The notes below the pieces were generated by a model. The model saw nothing but the letters and a program-made list of their open reading frames with translations, did not search any database and was not told where the DNA came from. The position numbers and the translations under genes were made by a program. A DNA stretch of 34,682 nucleotides from Promethearchaeia archaeon (GTDB taxonomy: Archaea; Asgardarchaeota; Lokiarchaeia; Sigyniarchaeales; SOKP01): contig JAHQWI010000107.1 in NCBI GenBank assembly GCA_029856085.1, positions 1-34,682 of the forward strand, read 5' to 3'. Shown in pieces: positions 3,928-21,247 of the stretch (within the stretch, counting starts at the first letter, position 1; each line of letters begins with the position of its first letter).

Positions 3928-4866
3928 TTATTTTCTCACTGATATTAACAAATGTTTAATTTTCTCCATAATCTTCTCTTTATTTAAGCCATAAAAATTT
4001 AACAACTTCTCTCTATTGCCAGATTGTCCAAACGATTCCTCAATACCAATGAATTTCATTGGCATAGGAAAATATTCAGAAATAATTCTAGCTAAGATGC
4101 TCCCAAATCCACAATAAATATTATGTTCTTCAAGAGCTACGACTCCTTTTGTGTTTGATATCTCTTTTATTAAAGCACTAATATTAATTGGCTTAACACT
4201 AGAAAGATTAACAACTTTTATGGAAATCCCTAATTTTTTCTCGATATAAGGAGCGGAATCTAAAGCTAATATAGTACCATAACCAGTTCCTACTAAACAA
4301 ATGTCATCACCTTCTTTAACTACATCTGGTTTTCCAATAAGGAACTTATAGTCTTCATTATGAATTTTGGGAAATGATCCTCTAGGTAATCTAATATAAA
4401 AAGGGCCCTTTGCATCAAATATATATTCTAACATTTTAATAAGTTCAATATTATCTGATGGGTTTAAAATTTTTAAATTAGGGAGTGAACACATTAGGCT
4501 TAAATCTTCTAATGCATTATGAGTACTTCCATCTCCTCCTACAAAACCACTATGAGTTGTGATAATTTTTATATTTAAATTATCATGGCATGCCAATCTA
4601 ATGAATTCCCATGCTCTTCCTGAAGTAAAAATTGAAAAACCACTTACAACTGGAACTTTTCCGGATATTGCGAATCCTAAGGCAGTGCCTAGCATGTTTT
4701 GCTCAGCTATACCCATATTAAAGAATCTATCAGGATATTCTTTAGCAAATTTATAAGTTCTTGTAGAAGAAGATAAATCAGAATCTAAAACGACAACATT
4801 ATTATTTGAATGTCCAATTTTCACTAAAAATTCCCCAAATGTATCCCTAAGATCTTGTTCACTCAT
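3928..4866 (-). CDS. Transketolase, C-terminal subunit
   Basis: This 312-residue protein corresponds to the pyrimidine-binding and C-terminal domains of transketolase, which are a separate polypeptide in many archaea. The pyrimidine-domain motif NMGIAEQNMLG carries the Glu (E55) that activates thiamine diphosphate. It is followed by THSGFVGGDGSTHNALEDL, which holds the family His residues, and by YIRLPRG. With the N-terminal subunit it moves two-carbon units between sugar phosphates, here most likely making sedoheptulose 7-phosphate from ribose 5-phosphate and xylulose 5-phosphate. Its start overlaps the end of the N-terminal subunit gene by 8 nt. It is the last gene of the minus-strand heptose operon. 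A DXS or pyruvate dehydrogenase E1-beta assignment fits less well because its partner has transketolase-type motifs. Confidence 0.92.
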   Translation of the reverse strand: MSEQDLRDTFGEFLVKIGHSNNNVVVLDSDLSSSTRTYKFAKEYPDRFFNMGIAEQNMLGTALGFAISGKVPVVSGFSIFTSGRAWEFIRLACHDNLNIKIITTHSGFVGGDGSTHNALEDLSLMCSLPNLKILNPSDNIELIKMLEYIFDAKGPFYIRLPRGSFPKIHNEDYKFLIGKPDVVKEGDDICLVGTGYGTILALDSAPYIEKKLGISIKVVNLSSVKPINISALIKEISNTKGVVALEEHNIYCGFGSILARIISEYFPMPMKFIGIEESFGQSGNREKLLNFYGLNKEKIMEKIKHLLISVRK

Positions 4867-5725
4867 TATGGGGAATCCCTCTTTTTAAATCATTCTCAAT
4901 ATCCTCAAGTTCTTTCAAAGCTAATGTGAATTCTTCCTCATTTGGGGCGCGTCCATGATATTTTTGGGTATGTTGCATGAATGATACGTCAGCGCCTTTA
5001 ATTAAATATGAAATCATAACTTTTGGCTTCCCAACTATGCTTTTACACCTTTCAAATCCTTGTAGAATTTCTTTAAGATTTGACCCATCAGTTTCAATAA
5101 CTTCCCATCCGAAAGCTTTCCATTTTTCTGCTAGGGGTTCTAAAGCCATAATTTCTTCAGTAGATCCATCATTTTGAATACCATTTCTATCTACTATCGC
5201 GATTAGGTTATCTAATTTATAATGACTCCCTGCCATTACAGCTTCCCAGATTGAGCCCTCATTTAACTCTCCGTCTCCTAATAATACATAAATCAATCTT
5301 TCTTCATTGTTCAGCTTTGCTGCTAAAGCACACCCCACTCCTATTGATAAACCCATGCCTAAAGAACCTGTAGATATTTCAATTCCAATTTTTAAGTTTT
5401 TTACTGGGTGCCCCTGTAGATCTGAACCAATTTGCCTTAAAGTAAACAGATCTTTTCTTTTAATAAATCCTATCTTTGATAAAACTGCATACAAAGCTGG
5501 TGCTGCATGTCCTTTACTTAAAACAAATATATCTCTTTCAGTCCATTGAGGATCCTCTCGATTAATCCTCATAACGTTATTATAAAGAAGATAAATAATA
5601 GTAACACAGGAAAGTGACCCACCAGGATGACCAGATTGGGCCTGAAAAATCATTTTCAAAATATCTTTTTTTATTCCCAAAATATCATGTAAAATTTTTT
5701 TCCCTTCTGCTTCTGATAATGTCAT
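4859..5725 (-). CDS. Transketolase, N-terminal (thiamine diphosphate-binding) subunit
   Basis: The 288-residue product is the diphosphate-binding half of a split transketolase. Motifs in order are SGHPGGSLS (31-39), KGHAAPALYA (71-80), QGHPVK (104-109), STGSLGMGLSIGVG (118-131), and the thiamine diphosphate/Mg signature starting GDGELNEG at 150 and ending with VDRNGIQ (N181). The conserved His residues at 33, 73 and 106 are those that contact substrate and cofactor in transketolases. The ATG at 5725 lies 21 nt after the HldE-like gene, and the 3' end overlaps the C-terminal subunit gene, so the two chains are probably translationally coupled. Many archaea lack transketolase and make pentoses by the ribulose monophosphate route. 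Its place beside gmhA and hddA points to sedoheptulose 7-phosphate supply. Confidence 0.93.
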   Translation of the reverse strand: MTLSEAEGKKILHDILGIKKDILKMIFQAQSGHPGGSLSCVTIIYLLYNNVMRINREDPQWTERDIFVLSKGHAAPALYAVLSKIGFIKRKDLFTLRQIGSDLQGHPVKNLKIGIEISTGSLGMGLSIGVGCALAAKLNNEERLIYVLLGDGELNEGSIWEAVMAGSHYKLDNLIAIVDRNGIQNDGSTEEIMALEPLAEKWKAFGWEVIETDGSNLKEILQGFERCKSIVGKPKVMISYLIKGADVSFMQHTQKYHGRAPNEEEFTLALKELEDIENDLKRGIPHNE

Positions 5726-5746
5726 TCTTAAACCTGTATTACTGAT

Positions 5747-6745
5747 TTATTTATTATTGGAATTTGAGATGATAAAATTGCTAAGTTTATCAGAATCATA
5801 AAACTCTACTGGAGGTAAAGAAGCAGTAAGTGCTGCAGCAGAAAGAGCTATTCTTGCTCCACTAGAAACTGGAACTTTTGATGCAAATGATAAGCCTAAT
5901 GTTGCCATTATCACACTCCCAACTGCCACATAACTCCTAGCAGGTTGTTGTAAGATTGGTTTAATCTTTTCCACCTTCTCAAAATTCTTATAAAAAAGAT
6001 AAGAATCTAATTCTAAATAATTTAATAATACATTTTTACATTTAGATGAGTTTAAAATTCTCTTCCCTGCTATTATAATACTAGTTTCATTACGACAATC
6101 AATTGAAAAGGTTTCTAAAGCTTTTTGAAGGTTCATTTTAATTAAATCCACATCTTCATATAGATAATAATTGGAGATAGTTGGACGAGCAAGAATAGGA
6201 ATATTTCTATAATATTCTTTCAACCTTGATAATAAATTTTGAATAAAAATATCTTTAAATAACCCTCCTGTACCATAATCTAAAACTAATATTGAATCAA
6301 TATCACGAGATCTAGTTTCAATTTTATCATAGAATTTCTCAATTATATTTTCTGAGATTTCATTAGTATAATCTGTTTCTAAACGTAAAACATGTTGATT
6401 CAATGCTTTAATGCGGGTAATTTGGGGTGTATTTATACTTTCATCTACTATTATACCTGATGGATCAATATTTAGTTCTTTGATACATTTTAAGAAAAAA
6501 TCCCCTTCAAAATCACTACCAATAACTGTAAAAACTTCTGGTATACCACCTAAAGATTTAATATATTGCAATACTAATCCAATAGCACCAATATATGTTT
6601 CACTTCTTTCAATTTTTACATTTGGAACTGGGGCATCAGGAGAAATTCTATCAGCATAGCCAAAAATATATTTATCTACTAAAGCTTCTCCTATAATTAA
6701 GACTTTCTTTTGTTTCCATTCTTTGATACTTTCAATTTGAGACAT
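5747..6745 (-). CDS. HldE N-domain-like PfkB-family protein with degenerate active site (probable pseudokinase)
   Basis: The 332-residue protein aligns by eye with the kinase domain of HldE/RfaE (D-glycero-beta-D-manno-heptose 7-phosphate kinase). The N-terminus LIIGEALVDKYIFGYADR and the following ISPDAPVPNVK (35-44) match the HldE heptose-binding region, and LVLDYGTGGL (153-162) matches its DYGKGAL. Key PfkB motifs are lost. The GGAANVA glycine motif reads IGAIGLV (52-58), the DPK segment reads ARP (186-188), and the catalytic GAGD/anion-hole motif reads AVGS (274-277), so the general base Asp is Ser. The fold seems intact and the frame is open, so this is not simple gene decay. It may be a non-catalytic or regulatory partner, or may bind heptose phosphate. 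The operon also has hddA, which would do the kinase step. Family confidence is high; function is unknown. Confidence 0.8.
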   Translation of the reverse strand: MSQIESIKEWKQKKVLIIGEALVDKYIFGYADRISPDAPVPNVKIERSETYIGAIGLVLQYIKSLGGIPEVFTVIGSDFEGDFFLKCIKELNIDPSGIIVDESINTPQITRIKALNQHVLRLETDYTNEISENIIEKFYDKIETRSRDIDSILVLDYGTGGLFKDIFIQNLLSRLKEYYRNIPILARPTISNYYLYEDVDLIKMNLQKALETFSIDCRNETSIIIAGKRILNSSKCKNVLLNYLELDSYLFYKNFEKVEKIKPILQQPARSYVAVGSVIMATLGLSFASKVPVSSGARIALSAAALTASLPPVEFYDSDKLSNFIISNSNNK

Positions 6746-6767
6746 TGCTATGAATTTGCATTATTCT

Positions 6768-7424
6768 TTATCTATTTAATTGACCTTTTAATTTCTTCCA
6801 ATCTCTTAGAAAAGCTTCTAAACCTTTTTCAGTATTCGGGTGAACAAACATTTTTTCTAAAACTGAAAATGGGATAGTTGCAATATGTGCTCCCAATTTT
6901 GCAGCTTCAACAACATGTCTAGTATTTCTTACAGATGCAACTATTAATTCTGATTTAAAATCATAAGCATTTAAAATTTCCATCGATTCCCATAGCATAT
7001 CAATCTCGTTTTGACCATTATCCATTAACCTTCCAATGAAAGGACTAATATAGGAAGCACCTGCTTTTGCTGCTATCAGAACTTGATTTTGAGAGAAAAC
7101 TAAAGTTACATTTGTTCTAATATTTTCAGCCTCAAGAATTTTTACTGCTTTTATCCCCTCCTTTGTCATCGGAATTTTAATAACAATGTTAGGAGCGATT
7201 TTTACCAATTCTCTTGCTTCTTTAACCATTTCCTCCGTTTTTAACCCAATAACTTCAGCACTAACGGGACCATCAACAGTTTCACAGATTTTTTTTAATT
7301 GTTCTATAGGATCAACCCCTTCTCTTGAAAGTAGGGTAGGGTTGGTAGTTACACCATCGATTATACCTAGTTCTTGCATTTCTTTTATTTGCTTTAAGTT
7401 AGCAGTATCTATAAAAAATTTCAT
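6768..7424 (-). CDS. tal: Transaldolase, small TalC/MipB type
   Basis: This 218-residue protein is a short transaldolase (subfamily of about 215 residues). It starts with MKFFIDTAN and has DGVTTNPTLL (23-32), the Schiff-base lysine in VIKIPMT (K83), RTNVTLVFS (103-111) and SPFIGR. The Phe at residue 129 is the transaldolase form; fructose-6-phosphate aldolases have Tyr there, so transaldolase is preferred. It transfers dihydroxyacetone units between fructose 6-phosphate/erythrose 4-phosphate and sedoheptulose 7-phosphate/glyceraldehyde 3-phosphate in the cytosol. With the transketolase and epimerase of the same operon it completes the non-oxidative pentose phosphate interconversions that control the heptulose pool. 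Spacing is 22 nt to the HldE-like gene and 45 nt from gmhB. Confidence 0.93.
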   Translation of the reverse strand: MKFFIDTANLKQIKEMQELGIIDGVTTNPTLLSREGVDPIEQLKKICETVDGPVSAEVIGLKTEEMVKEARELVKIAPNIVIKIPMTKEGIKAVKILEAENIRTNVTLVFSQNQVLIAAKAGASYISPFIGRLMDNGQNEIDMLWESMEILNAYDFKSELIVASVRNTRHVVEAAKLGAHIATIPFSVLEKMFVHPNTEKGLEAFLRDWKKLKGQLNR

Positions 7425-7469
7425 ACAATTTCACGAGTAAATTTTATTGATTATAATGATAATTGGTTA

Positions 7470-8018
7470 TTATATACTTATAGCAAATTCTTTTAAGTTT
7501 TTAAATATCATGTCTGGTATTATCGATTGTATTTTTTTTTCTTCTTCTTTTCCATAACCTGTTAAAACTAAAACAGTTTTGCATCTCACAGCATTACCCG
7601 TTTGAATATCATTTAAAGTATCTCCAACCATGTAGGAACTTTTTAAGTCTATATTATGCTGTTGTTGTGCTTTAAGAATCATACCTGGATTTGGTTTCCT
7701 ACAATCACATGGGCCAGAATATTCAGGATGGTGAGGACAGTAATAAATCGCATCCAATTCTGTATTATTTTGTTTTAAAATGTTTATCATTCTCTCATGA
7801 ATTTTTTTAAGAGTCTTTTCCGTAAAATAACCTTTTGCAATACCTGCTTGATTACTAATTACAATAAGTAAGAAACCTTTCTGTTTAAGAATTTTTAAAG
7901 CTTCAATTGAACCCTCAATAAATTCAAAATCATTTGGATCTGATAGATAATTAACTTCTTTATTTATCACACCATCTCGATCTAAGAAAATTGCTTTATT
8001 TTTTTTTGTTATTTTCAT
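7470..8018 (-). CDS. gmhB: D,D-heptose 1,7-bisphosphate phosphatase (HAD-IIIA)
   Basis: The 182-residue product has the complete GmhB pattern. The HAD nucleophile and acid/base are FLDRDGVIN (D13, D15). Motif II is VISNQAGIAKG (53-63). A GmhB-type zinc loop CPHHPEYSGPCDC uses C94, H96, C104 and C106, then RKPNPGM, and the Mg-binding GDTLND (132-137) follows. The enzyme removes the C7 phosphate from D-glycero-D-manno-heptose 1,7-bisphosphate to give heptose 1-phosphate. Histidinol-phosphate phosphatases share this fold and zinc loop, but gmhA and hddA in the same operon favour the heptose role. Its 5' end overlaps the 3' end of the rpe-like gene by 23 nt, which suggests translational coupling. 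Confidence 0.93.
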   Translation of the reverse strand: MKITKKNKAIFLDRDGVINKEVNYLSDPNDFEFIEGSIEALKILKQKGFLLIVISNQAGIAKGYFTEKTLKKIHERMINILKQNNTELDAIYYCPHHPEYSGPCDCRKPNPGMILKAQQQHNIDLKSSYMVGDTLNDIQTGNAVRCKTVLVLTGYGKEEEKKIQSIIPDMIFKNLKEFAISI

Positions 8019-8643
8019 CGGATTCTTTAAATAATTTGATTATTTGATTAGGATCCTCGGCTTTTAAAATTGCACTTGCACTAGTTAAAATATCCACATT
8101 TATCAATTTAGCATTTTCAGGACTTATGCCGCCATCAACATCAATTTCAAAATTCAATTTATTTTGATGCCTATAAGCATATAATAGATTTATTTTATCT
8201 GAAGTTTCCCATATAAATTCTTGTCCAGAATATCCAGGATTAACAGACATAATTAAAACAAGATCAATTTTATTTAGGTATGGTATTATTTTTAGAAGAG
8301 TTGTATCAGGACTTATAGCAATTCCAACTTTTTTATCGAGTTTTTTAATTTTATTAATGATATTTTCGATATCTCCTCCCGACTCATAATGAAAAACAAA
8401 GATGTCAGTATATTTAATGACTTTATCTATATAAGTAAGGGGATTCTTAACCATAAAATGACCGATTATTGGTATATCATAGTTCTCTTTTAGAATTTTG
8501 AAGATATTTAAGTAGTTTTGTTTATTTTCAACAAATTTTCCATCCATTACATCAACATGTACATAATCAAGCCCTTTTAAACCTTTAATTATATCTGGGT
8601 CGAAATTTTCGGTTGCGTGTAATGAGACCGCGACTTTCTTCAT
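7996..8643 (-). CDS. rpe: Ribulose-phosphate 3-epimerase-like protein
   Basis: This TIM-barrel protein of about 215 residues belongs to the ribulose-phosphate 3-epimerase family. Counting from the ATG at 8641-8643, metal ligands and catalytic residues are H29 and D31 in VHVDVMDGKFV, H62 in GHFMV and D170 in DVDGGI. The phosphate-binding MSVNPGYSGQEF is also present. It would interconvert ribulose 5-phosphate and xylulose 5-phosphate, feeding transketolase. It is somewhat divergent (VSLHA in place of the common PSILSAD-type start, and SASAIL for the GSAIF phosphate loop), so a related substrate such as allulose 6-phosphate cannot be ruled out. A TTG at 8652 directly after the gmhA stop would add three residues; I prefer the ATG. 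It overlaps gmhB at its 3' end. Confidence 0.85.
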   Translation of the reverse strand: MKKVAVSLHATENFDPDIIKGLKGLDYVHVDVMDGKFVENKQNYLNIFKILKENYDIPIIGHFMVKNPLTYIDKVIKYTDIFVFHYESGGDIENIINKIKKLDKKVGIAISPDTTLLKIIPYLNKIDLVLIMSVNPGYSGQEFIWETSDKINLLYAYRHQNKLNFEIDVDGGISPENAKLINVDILTSASAILKAEDPNQIIKLFKESDENNKKK

Positions 8644-8652
8644 TAAAATCAA

Positions 8653-9219
8653 CTATTCAAAGAGTTCATTTTCCACTAAATAGCAAATAATATGTCCAAC
8701 CGTTATATGACACTCTTGAATTCTTGGAGTATCAGTCGAGGGCATTTTGAGACAATAATCTACAATTTCTTCAATTTTGTTTTGTGTTTGACCTGTCATT
8801 CCGACAGTTATTGCACCCTTTTCTTTAGCTTTCGCTAACCCTTTAATTACATTTGGAGAGTTTCCTGAAGTACTTATCCCAATAGCTATATCTCCTTCTT
8901 CTACAAAAGCATTAACTTGGCGTTCGAAAATTAAATCATAACCATAGTCATTAGCAATAGCAGTAACGGAAGATGTGTTTGTATGAAAGGCTAACGAGGG
9001 AAGTGATTCACGGTTTTTGTAGAATTTACCAACAAATTCGGCAGCTATATGTTGAGCATCTGCAGCACTACCTCCATTTCCAAAAAGGACAACTTTCTTT
9101 TTATTTCGGTAAGCTTTAATAATTTCTTCAGAAACCCTTCTAATTTGAGGAGCTAAATCCTTAATTGCTTCTTTAACTTTAATGCTTTCATTTAAAATTG
9201 AAATAATTTTATCTTCCAT
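8653..9219 (-). CDS. gmhA: Sedoheptulose 7-phosphate isomerase (SIS domain)
   Basis: The protein of about 188 residues is a single SIS domain of the GmhA type. Counted from the ATG at 9219, the sugar-phosphate loop is LFGNGGSAADAQH with H57, then AAEFVGKF with the catalytic Glu E61. TSSVTAIANDYGYD is the usual GmhA segment. The second phosphate loop is GISTSGNSPNVIKG, and QECHITVGH near the C-terminus gives Q168 and H176, which complete the zinc/acid-base site known for GmhA. It converts sedoheptulose 7-phosphate to D-glycero-D-manno-heptose 7-phosphate, the committed step of heptose synthesis. A GTG at 9228 could add three residues. It follows hddA closely and abuts the rpe-like gene. DiaA-type SIS proteins are similar but lack this context. 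Confidence 0.94.
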   Translation of the reverse strand: MEDKIISILNESIKVKEAIKDLAPQIRRVSEEIIKAYRNKKKVVLFGNGGSAADAQHIAAEFVGKFYKNRESLPSLAFHTNTSSVTAIANDYGYDLIFERQVNAFVEEGDIAIGISTSGNSPNVIKGLAKAKEKGAITVGMTGQTQNKIEEIVDYCLKMPSTDTPRIQECHITVGHIICYLVENELFE

Positions 9220-9248
9220 AATTTTCACTTTAATTTTTAATATTTTTA

Positions 9249-10259
9249 TTAATTAATTTCCCAAACTTCAAGACCTTTTGGATTGAAATGAAAATTAACA
9301 ATTTTTCCTCCAATTTTTTCTAATTCTTGAATAACTCTGTGCTTTTTATTAGGTTCTGAAAATAATAATAAATGTCCTCCACCGCCAGCACCTAATAATT
9401 TTCCTCCAAGAACTCCAAACTTTCGTGAAGTTAAATAGAAGTTTTCTATCTCTTTATTTGAAATTTTTGAGCTTAAACTCTTTTTTGCTAACCAACCTTT
9501 ATGTAAAAGTTCACCAAATTCGTTTAATCGACCAATATCATTAGATTCAACAATATTCCTCATTGAATGTGCCACATCCTTCAAACCTTGCATAGCCTCC
9601 ATGTAAGATTTTTTTTCAATTTCGTAGCCTTTTAAAACTTCATCTTGAATATCGGAAGAAAAATGTGATCCTCCAACATAACATAAAATTAAACGATATT
9701 GTAATTCATTTACTATTTCATCTGTTTTCTTTATAGGGGTTACCTTTACAAAATTAGTGAATTCAATAAAATTAAATCCACCATAAGCAGCAGCAAATTG
9801 ATCTTGATAACCACCCTTCTGTTCTAATTCAATTCGTTCGATATCATAAGCTTTTTGAGCGATATCGTGTTCCGATAATCCAAAATTATAATAAACGTTA
9901 AATGCACCTATTAGCGCAACCGATAATGAGGAGGATCCTCCCATACCTGAACCTGCGGGAAGTTCTGAATAAGTTGTAATATTAAATCCCTCATTAATTT
10001 CCAAGACATTCACAATTCCTTTGAATATTTCGAAATCTGTAGAATAATCTTTATCACCAATATTAAAAACCAACTCTTGATTATAATTTAATGAAAAGAT
10101 CCGGATTTTTTTATCATCCCTGGGTTCTATCGTAACATATACATGGCGATCAATAGCTGTGCTTATTACACAACCGCCATATTCTATACAGTAGGGGGCC
10201 ATATCAGTACCACCTCCTCCAAAACTGACCCGGAAAGGGGCTTTTGAACGTACTATCAT
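9249..10259 (-). CDS. hddA: D-glycero-alpha-D-manno-heptose 7-phosphate kinase (GHMP family)
   Basis: The 336-residue protein is a GHMP kinase of the HddA subgroup. It begins with SKAPFRVSFGGGGTD (5-19). The ATP-binding loop PAGSGMGGSSS spans 101-111. GGYQDQFAAAYGGFNFIEF (149-167) holds the catalytic Asp D153, and the C-terminal GAGGGGHLLLF is GHMP motif 3. It should phosphorylate C1 of D-glycero-D-manno-heptose 7-phosphate in the alpha configuration, which in bacteria leads to GDP-heptose for S-layer glycoproteins or capsules rather than ADP-heptose for lipopolysaccharide. Related GHMP kinases for fucose or GlcNAc exist, but gmhA and gmhB next to it decide the call. It is the first gene of the operon. 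Its 5' flank is the 284-nt divergent region shared with the GT4 gene. Confidence 0.92.
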   Translation of the reverse strand: MIVRSKAPFRVSFGGGGTDMAPYCIEYGGCVISTAIDRHVYVTIEPRDDKKIRIFSLNYNQELVFNIGDKDYSTDFEIFKGIVNVLEINEGFNITTYSELPAGSGMGGSSSLSVALIGAFNVYYNFGLSEHDIAQKAYDIERIELEQKGGYQDQFAAAYGGFNFIEFTNFVKVTPIKKTDEIVNELQYRLILCYVGGSHFSSDIQDEVLKGYEIEKKSYMEAMQGLKDVAHSMRNIVESNDIGRLNEFGELLHKGWLAKKSLSSKISNKEIENFYLTSRKFGVLGGKLLGAGGGGHLLLFSEPNKKHRVIQELEKIGGKIVNFHFNPKGLEVWEIN

Positions 10260-11685: not shown

Positions 11686-12798
11686 CTATTTTAATTTACT
11701 TAATCTATTCTTGATAAAATTAAAGCAAATATCTATGGGATTCTCAAATTGGCTGATCTTTTCTTTGAATGAGCTAAGATTAAACCTATTAGGTGAGGGT
11801 CCTTGAGCTAATATTTTATTTGCTCTTTCAATTATTTCATCAGAGCTTCTAATGTGTTCTAAAGGAAATCCGTTCTTTATTAAAAATTTCTCTTGAGGTG
11901 CAGAATCGCCTGGAAAAAACTCTATGCTTGGAACATTCAATAGGCTTGATTCTCTTACGATTGTCCCACCGCCACTTATAATTAGAGATCCATAGAAACA
12001 TAAATCAACTATATTCGGTAAGTATTGAGTAATTATGATATTTTTTTCTTTCCTTAATTCTTTTAATTTTTTCAAAAGAAATCCTTTTTGCTTTTCAGAT
12101 CGAACTAGAAGGATATATTTATGATTAGGGAATTCTTTATAAATTGATGGGAGAAATTTGCTAATCAATGTCTCATCGGGTTTAAGTTTATCAATAAAAT
12201 AACTAGCATGGGCAGGTTCACTTCTTATTAGAAGAAAGTTACCTTTTTCTAAATTAAACTTATCAAGGATATTTGGGTCAGGTTTATACTCCGAGAGCCA
12301 AGCAATTTCATCTAAACCATTATAACGAATAATTTTCTCTGGATCAGCATGAAGATTTATATAATGTTCTATAGGGATACATTCCGGAGTTATAATATTA
12401 TCTATGAAGGGGTGAATTAATTTGCAGACAGGTTCATTGCGTGGCTCATCATTTATACCCATTGAAGGAATTTGTAAACCGTATGCTATTCGTGTTCCTT
12501 CTATAGATAAAAACGTGACAAAATAATCAGGTGAAAATGTTTTAACTAGAGGAAGAAGAGCTTTCAATCGATCAATATAAGTTTCTAATTTATCCTCTAA
12601 TTTTTGCCCACCATGTTTGCCAATCATCTTATAATTTATACTAAAATCTTCTAAAATTTGATATGTTGAATCATAGTCTCTTGCTGTTATTAAAAGATCA
12701 GATTCTTCATTTTCAAATTTCTTAATTAAAGAATGAAACATAACAGCAGTTTTAGGTTGCTCGATATCAATCCAAATTTTCTTCTTTAAAAGGCTCAT
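11686..12798 (-). CDS. DUF354 family protein (GT-B-like, possible glycosyltransferase or sugar-nucleotide epimerase relative)
   Basis: The 370-residue protein matches the archaeal/bacterial DUF354 family. It starts with KKIWIDIEQPKTAVMFHSLI, in which the conserved Asp, Pro and His of the first loop are visible, and has SPDYFVTFLSIEGTRIA and GINDEPRNEP. In the C-terminal half, LIISGGGTIVRESSLLNVPS is the glycine-rich donor-binding loop seen in DUF354 and UDP-GlcNAc 2-epimerase/MurG-like proteins. The substrate and reaction are not established for this family. Its position next to a GT4 enzyme and the heptose operon suggests work on surface glycans. It has no membrane segment. It is convergent with the GT4 gene. 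Confidence 0.8.
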   Translation of the reverse strand: MSLLKKKIWIDIEQPKTAVMFHSLIKKFENEESDLLITARDYDSTYQILEDFSINYKMIGKHGGQKLEDKLETYIDRLKALLPLVKTFSPDYFVTFLSIEGTRIAYGLQIPSMGINDEPRNEPVCKLIHPFIDNIITPECIPIEHYINLHADPEKIIRYNGLDEIAWLSEYKPDPNILDKFNLEKGNFLLIRSEPAHASYFIDKLKPDETLISKFLPSIYKEFPNHKYILLVRSEKQKGFLLKKLKELRKEKNIIITQYLPNIVDLCFYGSLIISGGGTIVRESSLLNVPSIEFFPGDSAPQEKFLIKNGFPLEHIRSSDEIIERANKILAQGPSPNRFNLSSFKEKISQFENPIDICFNFIKNRLSKLK

Positions 12799-12924: not shown

Positions 12925-13218
12925 TTATTTCCAGCAAATACATGGATTGGATTTGCACTTTATACACATATTGGGATATTTTTTAAATAAAGCATATTCG
13001 AGGTCAATATCTAATAAATTTGCTAAGGAAGTTGTCCAGGCAAAAATGTCTGCTAATTCTTCTGACGCTTTATTGGCATCAATTTCTTGATTCTTTAAAA
13101 TATTTGCTAATTCCCCAATTTCTTCTATTAACCAAATAAAAGTATTTTTTATACCTCTTATTTGATCCTGTTCAAAATAAAGGTTTTTAATAAGCTTCTG
13201 AAATTCTGATATTTTCAT
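12925..13218 (-). CDS. MazG-like nucleotide pyrophosphohydrolase with Cys-rich tail
   Basis: This 97-residue all-alpha protein has the MazG/dUTPase-like metal site: EEIGELA near residues 31-37 and EELADIFAW near 53-61, together the ExxE...ExxD arrangement that binds Mg. It should hydrolyse a (deoxy)nucleoside triphosphate to monophosphate and pyrophosphate, as a house-cleaning enzyme. After the catalytic helices there is a short tail, CIKCKSNPCICWK, with four Cys in two CxC/CxxC-like pairs, which looks like a metal-binding knuckle. Similar Cys-bearing tails occur in some archaeal MazG-like proteins. It lies 46 nt downstream of secG on the same strand and may be co-transcribed with it. Its exact nucleotide is unknown. 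Confidence 0.85.
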   Translation of the reverse strand: MKISEFQKLIKNLYFEQDQIRGIKNTFIWLIEEIGELANILKNQEIDANKASEELADIFAWTTSLANLLDIDLEYALFKKYPNMCIKCKSNPCICWK

Positions 13219-13264: not shown

Positions 13265-13486
13265 TTAACCCCCACCAGGTGTAAAAAGCCAGTTGAAAAT
13301 TCCCACGTGTGCTAAGATCACTAACATTATTAATGTAATAGATAAAATAATTGTACTTATTGGTCCAACTTTAATACCAATTGAACTATCTTCAAAGAAT
13401 CTCATTAATCCTGCACCTCCCATAGGCATAGGAGAACTTCCACTTCTTCTTTTCTTGCGTTTAGATTGAGTACGACTAGTTGACAT
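13265..13486 (-). CDS. secG: Preprotein translocase subunit SecG / Sec61-beta
   Basis: The 73-residue protein has the archaeal Sec61-beta layout. A basic, Ser-rich cytosolic N-terminus is followed by the conserved PMPMGGAGLMRFFED (20-34), a VGPISTII linker and one C-terminal membrane helix (about 43-67). It is the small accessory subunit of the SecYEG/Sec61 protein-conducting channel in the cytoplasmic membrane. Length and motif order match the archaeal family, which is closer to eukaryotic Sec61-beta than to bacterial SecG. It starts 149 nt from the divergent ribophorin I-like gene, which is noteworthy because in eukaryotes the Sec61 channel and the oligosaccharyltransferase work side by side. 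Confidence 0.93.
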   Translation of the reverse strand: MSTSRTQSKRKKRRSGSSPMPMGGAGLMRFFEDSSIGIKVGPISTIILSITLIMLVILAHVGIFNWLFTPGGG

Positions 13487-13514
13487 AACAAAAAAATCTC
13501 TTTAGAATAATAAT

Positions 13515-13525
13515 GTGTATAAATA
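13515..13525 (-). promoter_or_regulatory. TATA-like promoter of secG
   Basis: Read on the minus strand the site is GTATTTATACA, an archaeal TATA-like box about 30-40 nt upstream of the secG ATG at 13486. That spacing fits a very short leader. It is assigned by pattern only. Confidence 0.5.
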
Positions 13526-13578
13526 CCTTAAAAAATTTAAAATTTTATATAAAAGTTTTAAAAATATATTATAATAAA

Positions 13579-13588
13579 TTTTTATAAA
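13579..13588 (+). promoter_or_regulatory. TATA-like promoter of the ribophorin I-like gene
   Basis: A TTTTATAAAC box lies about 50 nt before the ATG at 13636, preceded by further A/T-rich sequence. A purine-rich tract from about 13616 to 13635 could include a weak ribosome-binding site. It is assigned by pattern only. Confidence 0.45.
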
Positions 13589-13635
13589 CGGCATTCATTA
13601 TTTTTAGATAACTTAAGAAAAGAAAAGATAGAGAA

Positions 13636-15486
13636 ATGGCAAAAAAAGAAAAATTTTTATTATTTTTTACGAGTTTTTTACTATTTATAGTAATTCTCTC
13701 ATATATACCAGCGGATTCAGAAATACGATACATAGATTATAATAATACCAGCAAAATTCCAGAAGTATCCGCTAGCGTGGAAGGAATAGAAAATGTTATG
13801 GTTACAAAAGTTGCAAGAGACGCTAATGTAAATAGTTATGGTTTGGTAATTTTTGAAGATTCAATAGAATTTAAAAATTTAAATAATTATCCAATCTCCT
13901 CAATATTTTTTGGACTTCCGGGATACAATCCTGAAGATTTGATTTTCTTTAAAGCGACAGGAATAAACGAAAACACATTATTAGCTGAACGTTCTAGTAT
14001 CATAATGAATGGATTTGAAATGATAGTCATATATTTTGATTCACCACTCTTACCACATCAAAAAAGTACTGTCAAGTTTACTTATATCTACAATAACATA
14101 GTATCTTACACAATGTTAGATAATCAATATGCAGCTCTTTTGGTTACCGTTTATCCAATTCTACCCTATAAGCTAGAAGGTAATATAGCCGCATATTTTA
14201 GTGTCCCTATAGATTCCTCAGACTTATATGGAGGTTGGGGTACGCAGCTTGGCGGAGTTAATACACTCTTTTATGATTTTGAAGAGATCAGGCTGCAAAT
14301 TGGAGCTGATTTTATAACTCCTTTCATGGAAAATTTAGATGATAAAATGCTAGTTGAAATATCTTTTGTTAACAATGAAAAAACTAAAACAGAGATGAAA
14401 GAAATAAACCGTGATATATTTATCTCACCATGGGGAATAATAAGAGTCAACGAAAAGTTCTCAATAGAAAATCTTGGAGAAATCAATTTTAATACAGTTT
14501 CATTAAAAATTCCTCAACATGCCTCAAATCTCAATATATTTGATGATTTAGGGGAAATATTAGGTGTAGTAATTGAGAACTCAGGAGATTTAACGTATAA
14601 AAGAGTTACAATCAATTTATTACAAAATCGTATAAGGCTAAAACCTAATTCAACATTTAATTTCAATGTTGAATATAATTTACCTTTTGAAAATTATGTT
14701 TCATTAAACTGGTTCCAACAATCAATTCAGATTGATTTGTTAACAACTACATATGACTATATGGGAAGAGATCAGACTATTAATGTGATAATTGATGGTT
14801 GCTATAATGTTGATTCAATTTCTGAATATCCAGAAGCTATCAAAAAATCTCAGGGAACTACAGTACTTGTATATAAATCTGATTTTATTTCACCTTTTGA
14901 AAGCATGGTAATACAATTTACATTTACAATTGATTTATTCGACTTACTTCTAAGACCTATAATTTTTATGCTTTTAATATCTTTTATTGCGTCAATTTAT
15001 GTTTTAACTGTTAAATTAAGAAAGAAAGAGCGTGATACGATTATTTTAAAAAGAGAATTTATCCCCGTTAATGAAATCCGAGAATTTTGTTCATTATATG
15101 AAGAAAAAAATGCTTTTCTCTTAGAAATCCGACAAGCAGAAGAAGATGCAAGAAGAAAGAAAATAGCAAAAAAGAATTATAAAAATATTTTGGATAAGAA
15201 TACATCAAAAATAGATGAAATACAGAAAGAAATAAATCCTTTTAAGAGAGTTTTATTAGAAACGAATATTACTTTTGAAAACGTCATAAAAAGGTTAGAT
15301 CTTCTAGAAGCAGAGCGAATTAGTGTTAAAGATAGCTTAAATCTTTTAGAATCTCGATATAAAAGAGGTAGATTGCCTTCTAGAGCAGCTTATCTTAAAC
15401 TATCTGAAGATTTCAAGAAAAGGAGAAGAAGAATTGAAAGAAATATCGATAAATTAATTCAACAATTAAGAAGTTATCTCCTATAA
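13636..15486 (+). CDS. Ribophorin I (OST1)-like membrane protein
   Basis: The 616-residue protein has an N-terminal signal sequence or anchor (about 5-24), a large extracellular beta-rich region (about 30-435), one membrane helix (about 436-459) and a cytosolic coiled-coil tail (about 490-612). This is the topology of ribophorin I, the OST1 subunit of the eukaryotic oligosaccharyltransferase. Two segments resemble it directly. RDIFISPWGIIRVNEKF (259-275) recalls the ribophorin stretch around ISHWGNI, and NVEYNLPFENYVSL (344-357) recalls its YNLPSYEYL. LVYKSDFISPFES before the helix also fits. It would sit at the membrane surface and support N-glycosylation of translocated proteins. The call rests on pattern memory; distant adhesin-like proteins are the main alternative. 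It is divergent from Sec61-beta and heads a run with trm112, tRNA-Gln and an ALG7-like gene. Confidence 0.7.
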   Translation: MAKKEKFLLFFTSFLLFIVILSYIPADSEIRYIDYNNTSKIPEVSASVEGIENVMVTKVARDANVNSYGLVIFEDSIEFKNLNNYPISSIFFGLPGYNPEDLIFFKATGINENTLLAERSSIIMNGFEMIVIYFDSPLLPHQKSTVKFTYIYNNIVSYTMLDNQYAALLVTVYPILPYKLEGNIAAYFSVPIDSSDLYGGWGTQLGGVNTLFYDFEEIRLQIGADFITPFMENLDDKMLVEISFVNNEKTKTEMKEINRDIFISPWGIIRVNEKFSIENLGEINFNTVSLKIPQHASNLNIFDDLGEILGVVIENSGDLTYKRVTINLLQNRIRLKPNSTFNFNVEYNLPFENYVSLNWFQQSIQIDLLTTTYDYMGRDQTINVIIDGCYNVDSISEYPEAIKKSQGTTVLVYKSDFISPFESMVIQFTFTIDLFDLLLRPIIFMLLISFIASIYVLTVKLRKKERDTIILKREFIPVNEIREFCSLYEEKNAFLLEIRQAEEDARRKKIAKKNYKNILDKNTSKIDEIQKEINPFKRVLLETNITFENVIKRLDLLEAERISVKDSLNLLESRYKRGRLPSRAAYLKLSEDFKKRRRRIERNIDKLIQQLRSYLL

Positions 15487-15510: not shown

Positions 15511-16134
15511 ATGAAGCCATGGTTATTTGATATATTAGCATGTCCCATTGATAAATATTTTCCATTAAAATTATATATATTTTCTTTTGAAACTAAAGCT
15601 GAAGAATTTCAAGCATTTATTGATATATATGAAAAAAGAGATCTAACCTTCATAAAAGAACAGAAAGTAATTGAAGTATCTCAAGAAAAAGATTTCCTTT
15701 TCATAAAAGATAATATTACTATAGAAAAATCTCCTTTAAAATCTTATCTTGGATTAATTATTTCAAGTATTAATGAATTAGATAATATCTTTGACAAGAC
15801 TAAAAATATATGTAGTAAAAAATGTTTTAGCATAATAAAGATAGAAATTAAACAAAAAATTGTTGATTTTTTGAAGAATTTCAATTTAAACGATATTGAA
15901 AATATCTTTCCTGAATTATATTTTTTAAATAAAATAAAAGTAGAAACAGAAATTGAATCAGGCCTATTATTTTGCGATAAATGTAATCGTTGGTATCCCA
16001 TAATAGATACAATACCACAAATGCTCCCAGATCAATTTAGAGATAAAAAAAAAGAAATTGAATTCCTTAAAATCAATAAAAATTTATTAGATGAAGAATT
16101 TTTTAATCAAAACCTTAAACCATTTAATTTATAA
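15511..16134 (+). CDS. Trm112-like methyltransferase activator with long insertion
   Basis: The 207-residue protein has the two halves of a Trm112 zinc domain. The N-terminus LFDILACPIDKYFPL (C11) matches the usual start, and LLFCDKCNRWYPIIDTIPQMLP (C155, C158; 152-173) matches the C-terminal knuckle and the IP-x-LLP-like end. About 120-130 helical residues lie between them, much more than in bacterial relatives (about 60 residues in total) and more than the insertion of yeast Trm112. The second Cys of the first knuckle is missing (Y16). C101 and C105 in the insert might replace it. Trm112 stabilises and activates S-adenosylmethionine-dependent methyltransferases acting on tRNA, rRNA and release factor. 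The stop is only 6 nt before the tRNA-Gln gene, so the two may share a transcript. Confidence 0.8.
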   Translation: MKPWLFDILACPIDKYFPLKLYIFSFETKAEEFQAFIDIYEKRDLTFIKEQKVIEVSQEKDFLFIKDNITIEKSPLKSYLGLIISSINELDNIFDKTKNICSKKCFSIIKIEIKQKIVDFLKNFNLNDIENIFPELYFLNKIKVETEIESGLLFCDKCNRWYPIIDTIPQMLPDQFRDKKKEIEFLKINKNLLDEEFFNQNLKPFNL

Positions 16135-16316: not shown

Positions 16317-17711
16317 ATGCCTCATCTTACACAGTTAAATTGGAGTTTTTTAGAAATATTTTATTTGATAATAATTTTCTTAGTAGGATTTTTGGTAACT
16401 TTTAAAATCCTCCCTTTTCTAATAAAATTTATGAAAAAGAAAGATTATATAGGCTATGATATACATAAAAACGCTCAACCTAAGGTAGCCGAATCTGGTG
16501 GAATCGTTTTAGTTATTGGTTTTACAGTTGCTTCAATTTTCCTAATGTTCTTTTTTCCAGTATTATTCAAAAAGACTCTCATTTTTCTCTTAACTGTTAT
16601 TAGCGCAGGAGCTATAGGATTTATAGATGATCGAAAAAAATTAAAATCACGATATAAAATTACTCTTTCAATTTTTTGTGGTAGTGCTATTTTTTTTGCT
16701 AATTTCTTTGGTTTTATAGCAATATCTTCGCCGACAATTCCTTTTATTGATAAAACTAGATTAAACTTCATTTATCCGCTCATCATACCTGTAATTGTAG
16801 CCGTTTTTATAAATAGTGTAAATATGCTGGAAGGATATAATGGAGAAGGTTCTGGGACTTGTTTAATTATAGTTATATTTCTGTTCATATGCGGTTTAAT
16901 ATGGAATTCTGCTGAAGCAGTGTTTTTTACTATTCCTGTAATTGCGGTACTAATCCCATTTCTTATTTATAATAGATATCCCGCAAAAGTATTCCCCGGG
17001 GATGTAGGAACTCTAAGTATGGGGGCGATGATTGCATGTATTATGTTTTTTGGTTCACTTGAAGTTGCTACATTTTGCGCACTTTTAGCTCATATATTTA
17101 ATAGTTTTTATGTGATTAATTCTGTTCGCGGGTTTTTTGAAAGTAGTGATATTCATAAAGATAAAAGTGATATTATATTACTTAAAGATGATCGAATCCA
17201 AGCATCAGATAAGAGAGATGCTGCACTAACACTACCTCGGCTAATATTAGCGAAAGGGTCATTAACAGAACCAGAATTAGTAAAAAATTTCTATGCCCTT
17301 TCAACTATTTGTGGGTTCTTTTCTATTATCTCGATAATTTTTTTACAGGTTTCCATAGGAAATTTTGAACTTATTGTTTTTTTTGTTTCAATCATTATTT
17401 GTTTTGTTCCTACTAGTTTTTTATTATATAAGTTTCCCAGAATAAGGGGGATAATCGTGCAGATGATCATTTTACTAGTTTTTATAATAATTTTCCTAGC
17501 TATTATTGATATTCTTATTATGCCTCTACCATTTGAAGATATTGGGTTTGGTATAATAAAAATCCCGGTTAATCTTTTAATTTCTTTTCTCTTAGTTGTT
17601 CCTGGATTATTAATTTGGTATTTTCTTACTATTAAATACTTTTGGTCGGTGATTGAGAAAATGAAAAAGAAAAACGAAAAGAAGCAAAGAGAAAAAAATG
17701 AGGTATTGTAG
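16317..17711 (+). CDS. ALG7/DPAGT1-like UDP-GlcNAc:dolichyl-phosphate GlcNAc-1-phosphotransferase
   Basis: The 464-residue protein has about ten or more membrane helices and the motifs of the MraY/WecA/ALG7 superfamily. GYDIHKNAQPKVAESGG (46-62) resembles the eukaryotic DPAGT1 segment with PESQG. GFIDDRKKLKSRYKI (101-115) has the catalytic DD at 104-105. NSVNMLEGYNGEGSG (166-180) replaces the eukaryotic NAINILAGINGLE, and YPAKVFPGDVGTLSMGAM (221-238) has D229. A later LPRLILAKGSLTE fits the cytosolic loop with the HxPRHR-like motif of eukaryotes. It should transfer GlcNAc-1-phosphate (or a related sugar) to dolichyl phosphate, the first step of N-glycan lipid assembly. The C-terminus is longer than in bacterial homologues. 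Its stop abuts the TTG of the M48 gene. Confidence 0.88.
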   Translation: MPHLTQLNWSFLEIFYLIIIFLVGFLVTFKILPFLIKFMKKKDYIGYDIHKNAQPKVAESGGIVLVIGFTVASIFLMFFFPVLFKKTLIFLLTVISAGAIGFIDDRKKLKSRYKITLSIFCGSAIFFANFFGFIAISSPTIPFIDKTRLNFIYPLIIPVIVAVFINSVNMLEGYNGEGSGTCLIIVIFLFICGLIWNSAEAVFFTIPVIAVLIPFLIYNRYPAKVFPGDVGTLSMGAMIACIMFFGSLEVATFCALLAHIFNSFYVINSVRGFFESSDIHKDKSDIILLKDDRIQASDKRDAALTLPRLILAKGSLTEPELVKNFYALSTICGFFSIISIIFLQVSIGNFELIVFFVSIIICFVPTSFLLYKFPRIRGIIVQMIILLVFIIIFLAIIDILIMPLPFEDIGFGIIKIPVNLLISFLLVVPGLLIWYFLTIKYFWSVIEKMKKKNEKKQREKNEVL

Positions 17712-20261: not shown

Positions 20262-20299
20262 TAAAATTTAATATAATTATACCTTTCAATGGGTTGTCA

Positions 20300-21247
20300 A
20301 TGTCAAATAAAATTAAAAATTTTTTAAACCTTCTACGTATACGGCAATATTACAAAAACGTAATGATATTTGTCGGGATTTTTTTTAGTGAAAGACTCTT
20401 TGAAATAGATCTCTATTTAACTCTCTTTATTGGTTTTTTTTTGCTATGTCTTGCATCATCCTTTAATTATATTATTAATGATATAAGAGATATAGAAAAA
20501 GATAGAAATCATCCAGAAAAAATCAAAAAAAAACCTATAGCCTCAGGTGATATTTCAATTTCTTTCGCTATACTGTTATTAATTATATTAGGAGGGTGTA
20601 TTATTTTATTTTTGATTTTTCTGATTCCAAATATAGGTTTTGCTTTTATGATAATTTTGACAATTGTCACAGGTCAACTTTATAATCATCTTTTTAAGAA
20701 TTACGCATTTATTGATATTCTTATTTTGTCTACTGGATATCTATGGAGAGCTTTAGCAGGATGTGCAATAATTGAAGAATATGTTTCTGCTTGGTTATTT
20801 TTAGCCATTTTTGAAGTAGCTATGTTTTTGAGTATCGCAAAAAGAAAAGGAGATTTGATAATTCTTGGAAATAATAAAGCAGTTGACCATAAAAAAATTT
20901 ATGATCAATATTCTCTTAAATTATTAGACCAATTTCATGTAATAATTGCGGGGTCATTGTTTATGACATATTCTCTATATCTTCTTATTAATTTTAATCT
21001 TATTAGTTTCAATTCCACAGAGACTCGAAATGCCAATTTTTATGAATATATTTCTATTTTTACAATACCAATTTCACTGTATATAATCATGCGTTATATG
21101 TATCTAACCTCAACAAAGCCAGAAATCGCTAGAAACACCGAAAAAGCCTTTTTGGACAAAGGAATAATCATTGCTGGTGCTTTTCTGTTTATTATATTAT
21201 TATTTTCTTTTTATTTTGATATATTTCTCGAGTTTTTTCAAACATAG
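20300..21247 (+). CDS. UbiA-family prenyltransferase, decaprenylphosphoryl-phosphoribose synthase-like
   Basis: The product of about 315 residues has eight or nine membrane helices and the first UbiA aspartate motif NDIRDIEKDRNHPEKIKKKP (here beginning near residue 60), ending with the HP typical of the DPPR-synthase subgroup. The preceding LRIRQYYKN is the RPxQWxKN-like start of that subgroup. The second motif region reads KRKGDLIIL and YDQYSLKLLDQ. DPPR synthases move phosphoribose from PRPP to a polyprenyl phosphate, giving a lipid-linked pentose donor for surface glycans. Other UbiA enzymes make archaeal lipids or quinones, so the acceptor is uncertain. I prefer the ATG at 20300 to a TTG at 20294. 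The tail of a second copy lies just downstream. Confidence 0.82.
   Translation: MSNKIKNFLNLLRIRQYYKNVMIFVGIFFSERLFEIDLYLTLFIGFFLLCLASSFNYIINDIRDIEKDRNHPEKIKKKPIASGDISISFAILLLIILGGCIILFLIFLIPNIGFAFMIILTIVTGQLYNHLFKNYAFIDILILSTGYLWRALAGCAIIEEYVSAWLFLAIFEVAMFLSIAKRKGDLIILGNNKAVDHKKIYDQYSLKLLDQFHVIIAGSLFMTYSLYLLINFNLISFNSTETRNANFYEYISIFTIPISLYIIMRYMYLTSTKPEIARNTEKAFLDKGIIIAGAFLFIILLFSFYFDIFLEFFQT

Follow-up and report, generated by a model that had tools for sequence, protein, structure and literature searches.

Why should a Lokiarchaeal gene for an apparent ribophorin I stand back to back with the gene for a translocon subunit? In eukaryotes, ribophorin I (OST1) is a subunit of the oligosaccharyltransferase (OST) beside the Sec61 channel, and to our knowledge the position of OST1 at the junction of ribosome and translocon was long held to be eukaryotic. 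The locus analyzed here, within a stretch of 34,682 nt that we refer to as the window, therefore raises two questions: whether the encoded protein is a genuine OST1, and whether its gene order preserves a trace of the eukaryotic translocon-OST complex. The features on which the answers depend are collected in Table 1.

Table 1. Genes, protein segments and intergenic blocks around OST1, in window positions
Feature	Position	Strand	Details
DUF354 GT-B-fold protein	11686..12798	-	Recurrent GPT/OST1 neighbour in Asgard genomes
MazG-like protein	12925..13218	-	Conserved secG neighbour in the order
secG, Sec61-beta subunit	13265..13486	-	73 aa, ATG start; PF03911 44.4 bits (cut-off 27)
TATA-like block facing secG, AAATTTAAAATTTTATATAA on the + strand	13533..13552	-	Pairwise identity 0.70
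TATA-like block facing OST1, AATAAATTTTTATA	13573..13586	+	Pairwise identity 0.86
Conserved block where OST1 transcription would be expected to begin, TTCATTATTTTTAGATAACTT	13594..13614	+	Pairwise identity 0.82
OST1/ribophorin I homologue	13636..15486	+	616 aa, ATG start; profile, fold, phmmer
N-terminal hydrophobic helix (signal peptide/anchor), residues 2-22	13639..13701	+	AlphaFold model and sequence
Extracytoplasmic beta domain 1, residues ~51-245	13786..14370	+	Model; matches lumenal part of human/yeast OST1
Extracytoplasmic beta domain 2, residues ~252-432	14389..14931	+	Model, profile, Foldseek
Single membrane helix and cytosolic continuation, residues 434-471	14935..15048	+	Model
Cytosolic four-helix bundle, residues 478-613	15067..15474	+	Homologous to MK-D1 OST1 domain 8WHN
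Trm112-like zinc-ribbon protein	15511..16134	+	207 aa; PF03966 37.2 bits; directly 3' of OST1
GPT, polyprenyl-phosphate GlcNAc-1-phosphate transferase-like (Alg7/AglH candidate)	16317..17711	+	PF00953

Identity and architecture of the OST1 homologue

The topology predicted from helices and hydrophobic segments comprises a signal sequence, an extracytoplasmic part, one membrane helix and a cytosolic bundle. The position of the open reading frame and the AlphaFold model (built from 38 sequences, mean pLDDT 83.9) bear out the original prediction of a protein of this length with a signal or anchor, a large extracellular part and a single membrane helix, while the tail that it had described as a coiled coil is present but forms a four-helix bundle, as in 8WHN. 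As a single sequence, the protein matched neither PF04597, in a Pfam search covering the window and the whole genome of this archaeon, nor any NCBIfam model. The PF04597 miss is a limit of sensitivity, and family profiles were therefore used instead. A profile of 15 family members (A1) matched human OST1 (E = 5.9e-11), with ISPWG (residues 263-267) placed opposite human VSHWG and the YNLP segment (residues 347-350) opposite human YNLP; both motifs lie within beta domain 2, and their proposed likeness to ribophorin I is upheld by this alignment. An Asgard-wide profile of 23 relatives (A3) matched human OST1 over its full length (residues 31-603, E = 8.2e-38) and yeast Ost1 (E = 6.2e-20), and 14 of these 23 relatives matched PF04597 themselves (best E = 4.6e-32). 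Judged from these profiles, the signal to OST1 is far above chance.

The predicted fold gave a parallel result. The model contains the two tandem beta domains of the OST1 fold, and a Foldseek search of the PDB returned human and yeast OST1 chains at all of ranks 1-8 (E from 2e-32 to 4e-21), followed at rank 9 by 8WHN, the cytosolic domain of MK-D1 OST1 (48% identity, rmsd 2.0), which phmmer also retrieved with the window sequence (E = 5e-35). The ribophorin I assignment is thus borne out by profile and by fold alike, and the outcome named beforehand as its refutation, an insignificant profile match together with another fold, did not occur. From the single-sequence Pfam miss and coiled-coil matches that were all weak, one might have read a surface protein unrelated to OST1, with a coiled-coil tail and a chance likeness at ISPWG and YNLP, but the A3 profile, the Foldseek ranking and the crystal-domain match are specific to OST1 and refute it, leaving it a negligible probability.

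A variant of the protein was observed in another Asgard family (f8), in which OST1 reaches ~980-1010 aa (L065:7444-10380 and L078:7080-10052) through an N-terminal extension. This extension includes a domain of the FKBP prolyl isomerase type (E = 1.9e-11 in L065, 2.6e-5 in L078), and that of L078 has an Ig-like domain as well. Most places of this family among the matches listed have open frames longer than 880 aa, and by domain prediction a folding enzyme is fused to an OST subunit here.

Divergent pairing with secG

The secG product, well above the PF03911 cut-off, fell just below that of NCBIfam NF002318 (47.7 vs 55). The gap between the two divergent genes spans 13487-13635, confirming from the coordinates and the Pfam match that OST1 starts 149 nt from the Sec61-beta gene. 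All relatives from named genomes are labelled "Candidatus Lokiarchaeota" or "Lokiarchaeia archaeon", which assigns the window to a Lokiarchaeia MAG. We counted adjacency in 51 named Lokiarchaeal loci in which most of OST1 is present: secG adjoins OST1 in 50 of them (46 divergent, 4 on the same strand), and the last locus is cut off by a contig edge 427 nt upstream of OST1. The divergent gaps measured 102-231 nt, except one of 496 nt. The pairing is common to three families (f1, f2 and f3) of one order; in a fourth family of the same order (f4), secG was absent from the one sampled locus (L073, covering 7.7 kb upstream). Among the fetched OST1 loci of other Asgard classes, none contained secG; for some families such absences rest on loci reaching roughly 1-9 kb upstream of OST1, on MAG contigs that are often short. 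Where secG and OST1 shared a contig in other classes, they lay 17 to 254 kb apart among the matches listed, the set to which these distance data refer.

The divergent secG-OST1 pair shows strong conservation across one order of Lokiarchaeia. The sampled loci of other Asgard classes have no secG close to OST1, so the pairing appears to be a derived, lineage-specific Lokiarchaeial trait rather than an Asgard-ancestral one. The gene-order comparison thereby splits the original prediction: the pair is kept in one order, and it was not seen in the sampled loci of other classes, so that a "genomic echo" of the eukaryotic translocon-OST complex, understood as ancestry, is not supported. The pairing with Sec61-beta apparently arose within Lokiarchaeia, which corrects the tempting story of an ER-translocon fossil.

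An intergenic alignment of 21 relatives showed three conserved blocks (Table 1), the first ~50-60 nt from the secG start and the second ~55 nt from the OST1 start, while the rest of the gap had a pairwise identity of 0.52 (0.39 expected from composition); the blocks were picked by eye after alignment in AT-rich DNA, and these identities are descriptive. The opposed TATA-like blocks persist across the order together with the divergent pair, which suggests two opposed promoters in a shared region of ~150 nt. The shared promoter region originally proposed is compatible with this arrangement, from which we infer that secG and OST1 may be co-regulated. The strongest rival account, to which we assign somewhat less than an even chance, holds that the pairing is neutral inheritance of gene order between two unrelated units whose regulation does not tie the translocon to glycosylation. 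The confinement of the pair to one order fits such inheritance, as do the apparent TATA-like block of each gene's own and the tolerance of one genus (g3) for an inverted MazG gene between secG and OST1, or for secG upstream on the same strand; it sits less easily with a gap held at ~100-230 nt in most loci, even at OST1 identities of ~27-30%, and with the survival of the pair while heptose genes, DUF354 and an ABC transporter move.

Two further arrangements were observed around this cluster. In a relative with a single-contig genome (G004), a second copy of secG adjoins DUF354 (C1:2970467-2972096) and lies ~2.4 Mb away from the OST1-secG locus; this end of the cluster, secG plus DUF354, may have been duplicated or rearranged. 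On the minus strand of the window, positions 3928-10259 encode transketolase halves, a transaldolase, a Ru5P epimerase, a GmhA-like SIS protein, a HAD phosphatase and a kinase resembling HddA (NF049969, E = 5.2e-76, short of the model's cut-off). Judged by predicted function, these genes resemble a nucleotide-heptose pathway that supplies its own sedoheptulose. This cluster sits between DUF1015-M24 and GT4, which are adjacent genes in most relatives, and was seen in only one other locus (L079).

Linkage to GPT and candidate N-glycan genes

OST1 is also associated with the PF00953 gene GPT, present in one copy in the genome of this archaeon (3.26 Mb, 214 contigs, ~80% complete) and in one copy in each of nine relatives. 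Like archaeal AglH and eukaryotic Alg7 (DPAGT1), it belongs to PF00953, and among solved structures its best match was human DPAGT1 (E = 9.6e-10); MraY scored almost as well (E = 1.4e-9, both from a single-sequence search), which keeps the sequence-based assignment at the level of a candidate, and scores with the NCBIfam MraY models were far below cut-off. Of the named loci, 51 have the Trm112-like gene directly behind OST1 and 46 have GPT downstream, some contigs ending earlier. Beyond the family of the window, 17 of 35 sampled genomes have GPT no more than 5 kb away from OST1, over nine families (f2, f3, f4, f5, f7, f8, f21, f22 and f27), with one, rarely two, GPT copies per genome; the linkage was absent in about half of the 35, in part because MAG contigs are short. 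For one gene placed at random in 2-4 Mb, the chance of such proximity is below 1% per genome, related genomes not being independent. The older and more widespread linkage of OST1 is that with GPT and N-glycan synthesis, not that with secG, and its recurrence is stronger support for a part in N-glycosylation than the secG link. Through a usually single-copy GPT-like gene, gene order provides independent genomic evidence for Asgard OST1 in N-glycosylation.

Other genes of the neighbourhood showed features of their own. The Trm112-like gene also occurs near OST1 in some other Asgard families; in the window protein, a long insertion splits the halves of the zinc ribbon, the PF03966 match extending from residue 5 to residue 166. 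Positions 20294-21247, which follow GPT and the gene for an 849-aa M48 peptidase-like membrane protein, encode a UbiA-family member similar to decaprenyl-phosphate phosphoribosyltransferase (NF008977, E = 1.4e-52, short of its cut-off); it is conserved at this place in the family and may make a lipid-linked pentose. The catalytic subunit STT3 (PF02516, E = 1.3e-50) is encoded in the same genome on a contig (C117) other than that of OST1.

One study did not find Alg13- or Alg14-like sequences in most Asgard species (PMC8993221). DUF354 was found near OST1 or GPT in nine families (f1, f2, f3, f7, f13, f20, f22, f27 and f29), in several of them right beside GPT; the genomes sampled from f8 and f9 lack it and have Alg14 instead, located in f9 at 3.5 kb from GPT. 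Across the sampled Asgard genomes, 32 had DUF354 alone, 7 Alg14 alone, 2 both and 4 neither, a near mutual exclusion (Fisher P = 2e-4, with genomes treated as independent though they are not) that raises the possibility of DUF354 standing in for Alg13/14. We considered DUF354 as an Alg13/14 homologue, a candidate weakened by its predicted structure: the fold is GT-B, and the nearest solved structures are UDP-GlcNAc 2-epimerases, not MurG or Alg13/14. Given this likeness, DUF354 may act in providing a sugar and not in its transfer. A broader reading, which we regard as rather unlikely, is an ancestral Asgard island of OST1, GPT and DUF354 in which DUF354 would perform the second step, or supply the second sugar, in lineages without Alg13/14, the island having been wired to the translocon in one order of Lokiarchaeia through the divergent secG-OST1 promoters; the OST1-GPT linkage in nine further families, the recurrence of DUF354 beside GPT or OST1 in many families, the near exclusion of DUF354 and Alg14 and the place of Alg14 near GPT in f9 speak for it, and the epimerase-like fold speaks against it. 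The neighbourhood yields concrete candidates through which Asgard N-glycan synthesis, its missing second step included, can be approached.

Proposed role and comparison with known systems

Collectively, we hold with high confidence that the gene encodes a Lokiarchaeal OST1, situated in an N-glycosylation neighbourhood and divergently paired with secG in one order. By analogy with the eukaryotic OST, its two extracytoplasmic beta domains would lie beside the catalytic STT3/AglB, and its cytosolic bundle might bind the ribosome where it meets the Sec61 channel, in keeping with the ribosome binding published for the MK-D1 bundle (PMC11417166). OST1 would then tether ribosome and STT3/AglB at the Sec61 channel of the plasma membrane, where sequons of the nascent chain could be glycosylated during translocation, and the paired opposed promoters in ~150 nt might balance the expression of OST1 and Sec61-beta in this one order of Lokiarchaeia. 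We consider it improbable that OST1 has left the OST to serve chiefly as a receptor for ribosomes at the Sec61 channel, tied to secG and not to STT3: its divergent pairing with Sec61-beta, the published binding of ribosomes by the cytosolic domain from MK-D1 (PMC11417166) and the location of STT3 on another contig would all suit such a receptor, but both extracytoplasmic OST1 domains are kept, and the linkage with GPT holds inside and outside the order.

A protein of this kind is already known, since Asgard OST1, the structure of its bundle and its binding to ribosomes are all published. Carilo et al. 2024 reported OST1, OST3/6, STT3 and TRAP in MK-D1, solved the structure of the MK-D1 OST1 bundle, found it to bind human ribosomes and reported OST1 homologues in TACK archaea too (PMC11417166), and a 2023 study listed OST subunits across Asgard archaea, with Ost1 said to have been reported earlier (PMC10307638). 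Gene order is not discussed in the available text of PMC11417166, and in the accessible parts of the open-access literature on Asgard OST clusters, synteny, DUF354 and Alg13/14 we found no report of the OST1-secG or OST1-GPT order. The place of OST1 among sugar-pathway genes, and beside secG in its order, looks unreported; with the presence of Asgard OST1 now published, this gene order is the new part, and a modest clue.

The closest known counterpart is OST1 of the Lokiarchaeon MK-D1 (Prometheoarchaeum syntrophicum; WP_147663064.1, 8WHN), which has the same architecture; the window protein belongs to a different family and is its diverged orthologue, with a bundle ~48% identical to 8WHN in the structural match. 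In L075, which is closely related to MK-D1 and whose bundle is 87% identical to 8WHN, a divergent secG like that of the window lies at a gap of 136 nt. Human OST1 (6S7O, 8B6L) and yeast Ost1 (6C26, 7OCI) align with the window model through two lumenal beta domains and the membrane helix (TM-score up to 0.75 by target length), at ~14% identity, and the cytosolic bundle is found in human OST1 as well. The human and yeast proteins reside in the ER, whereas the window OST1 would be placed in the plasma membrane, as presumed for Lokiarchaea, and its gene, unlike those of human and yeast, is clustered with a GlcNAc-1-P transferase-like gene.
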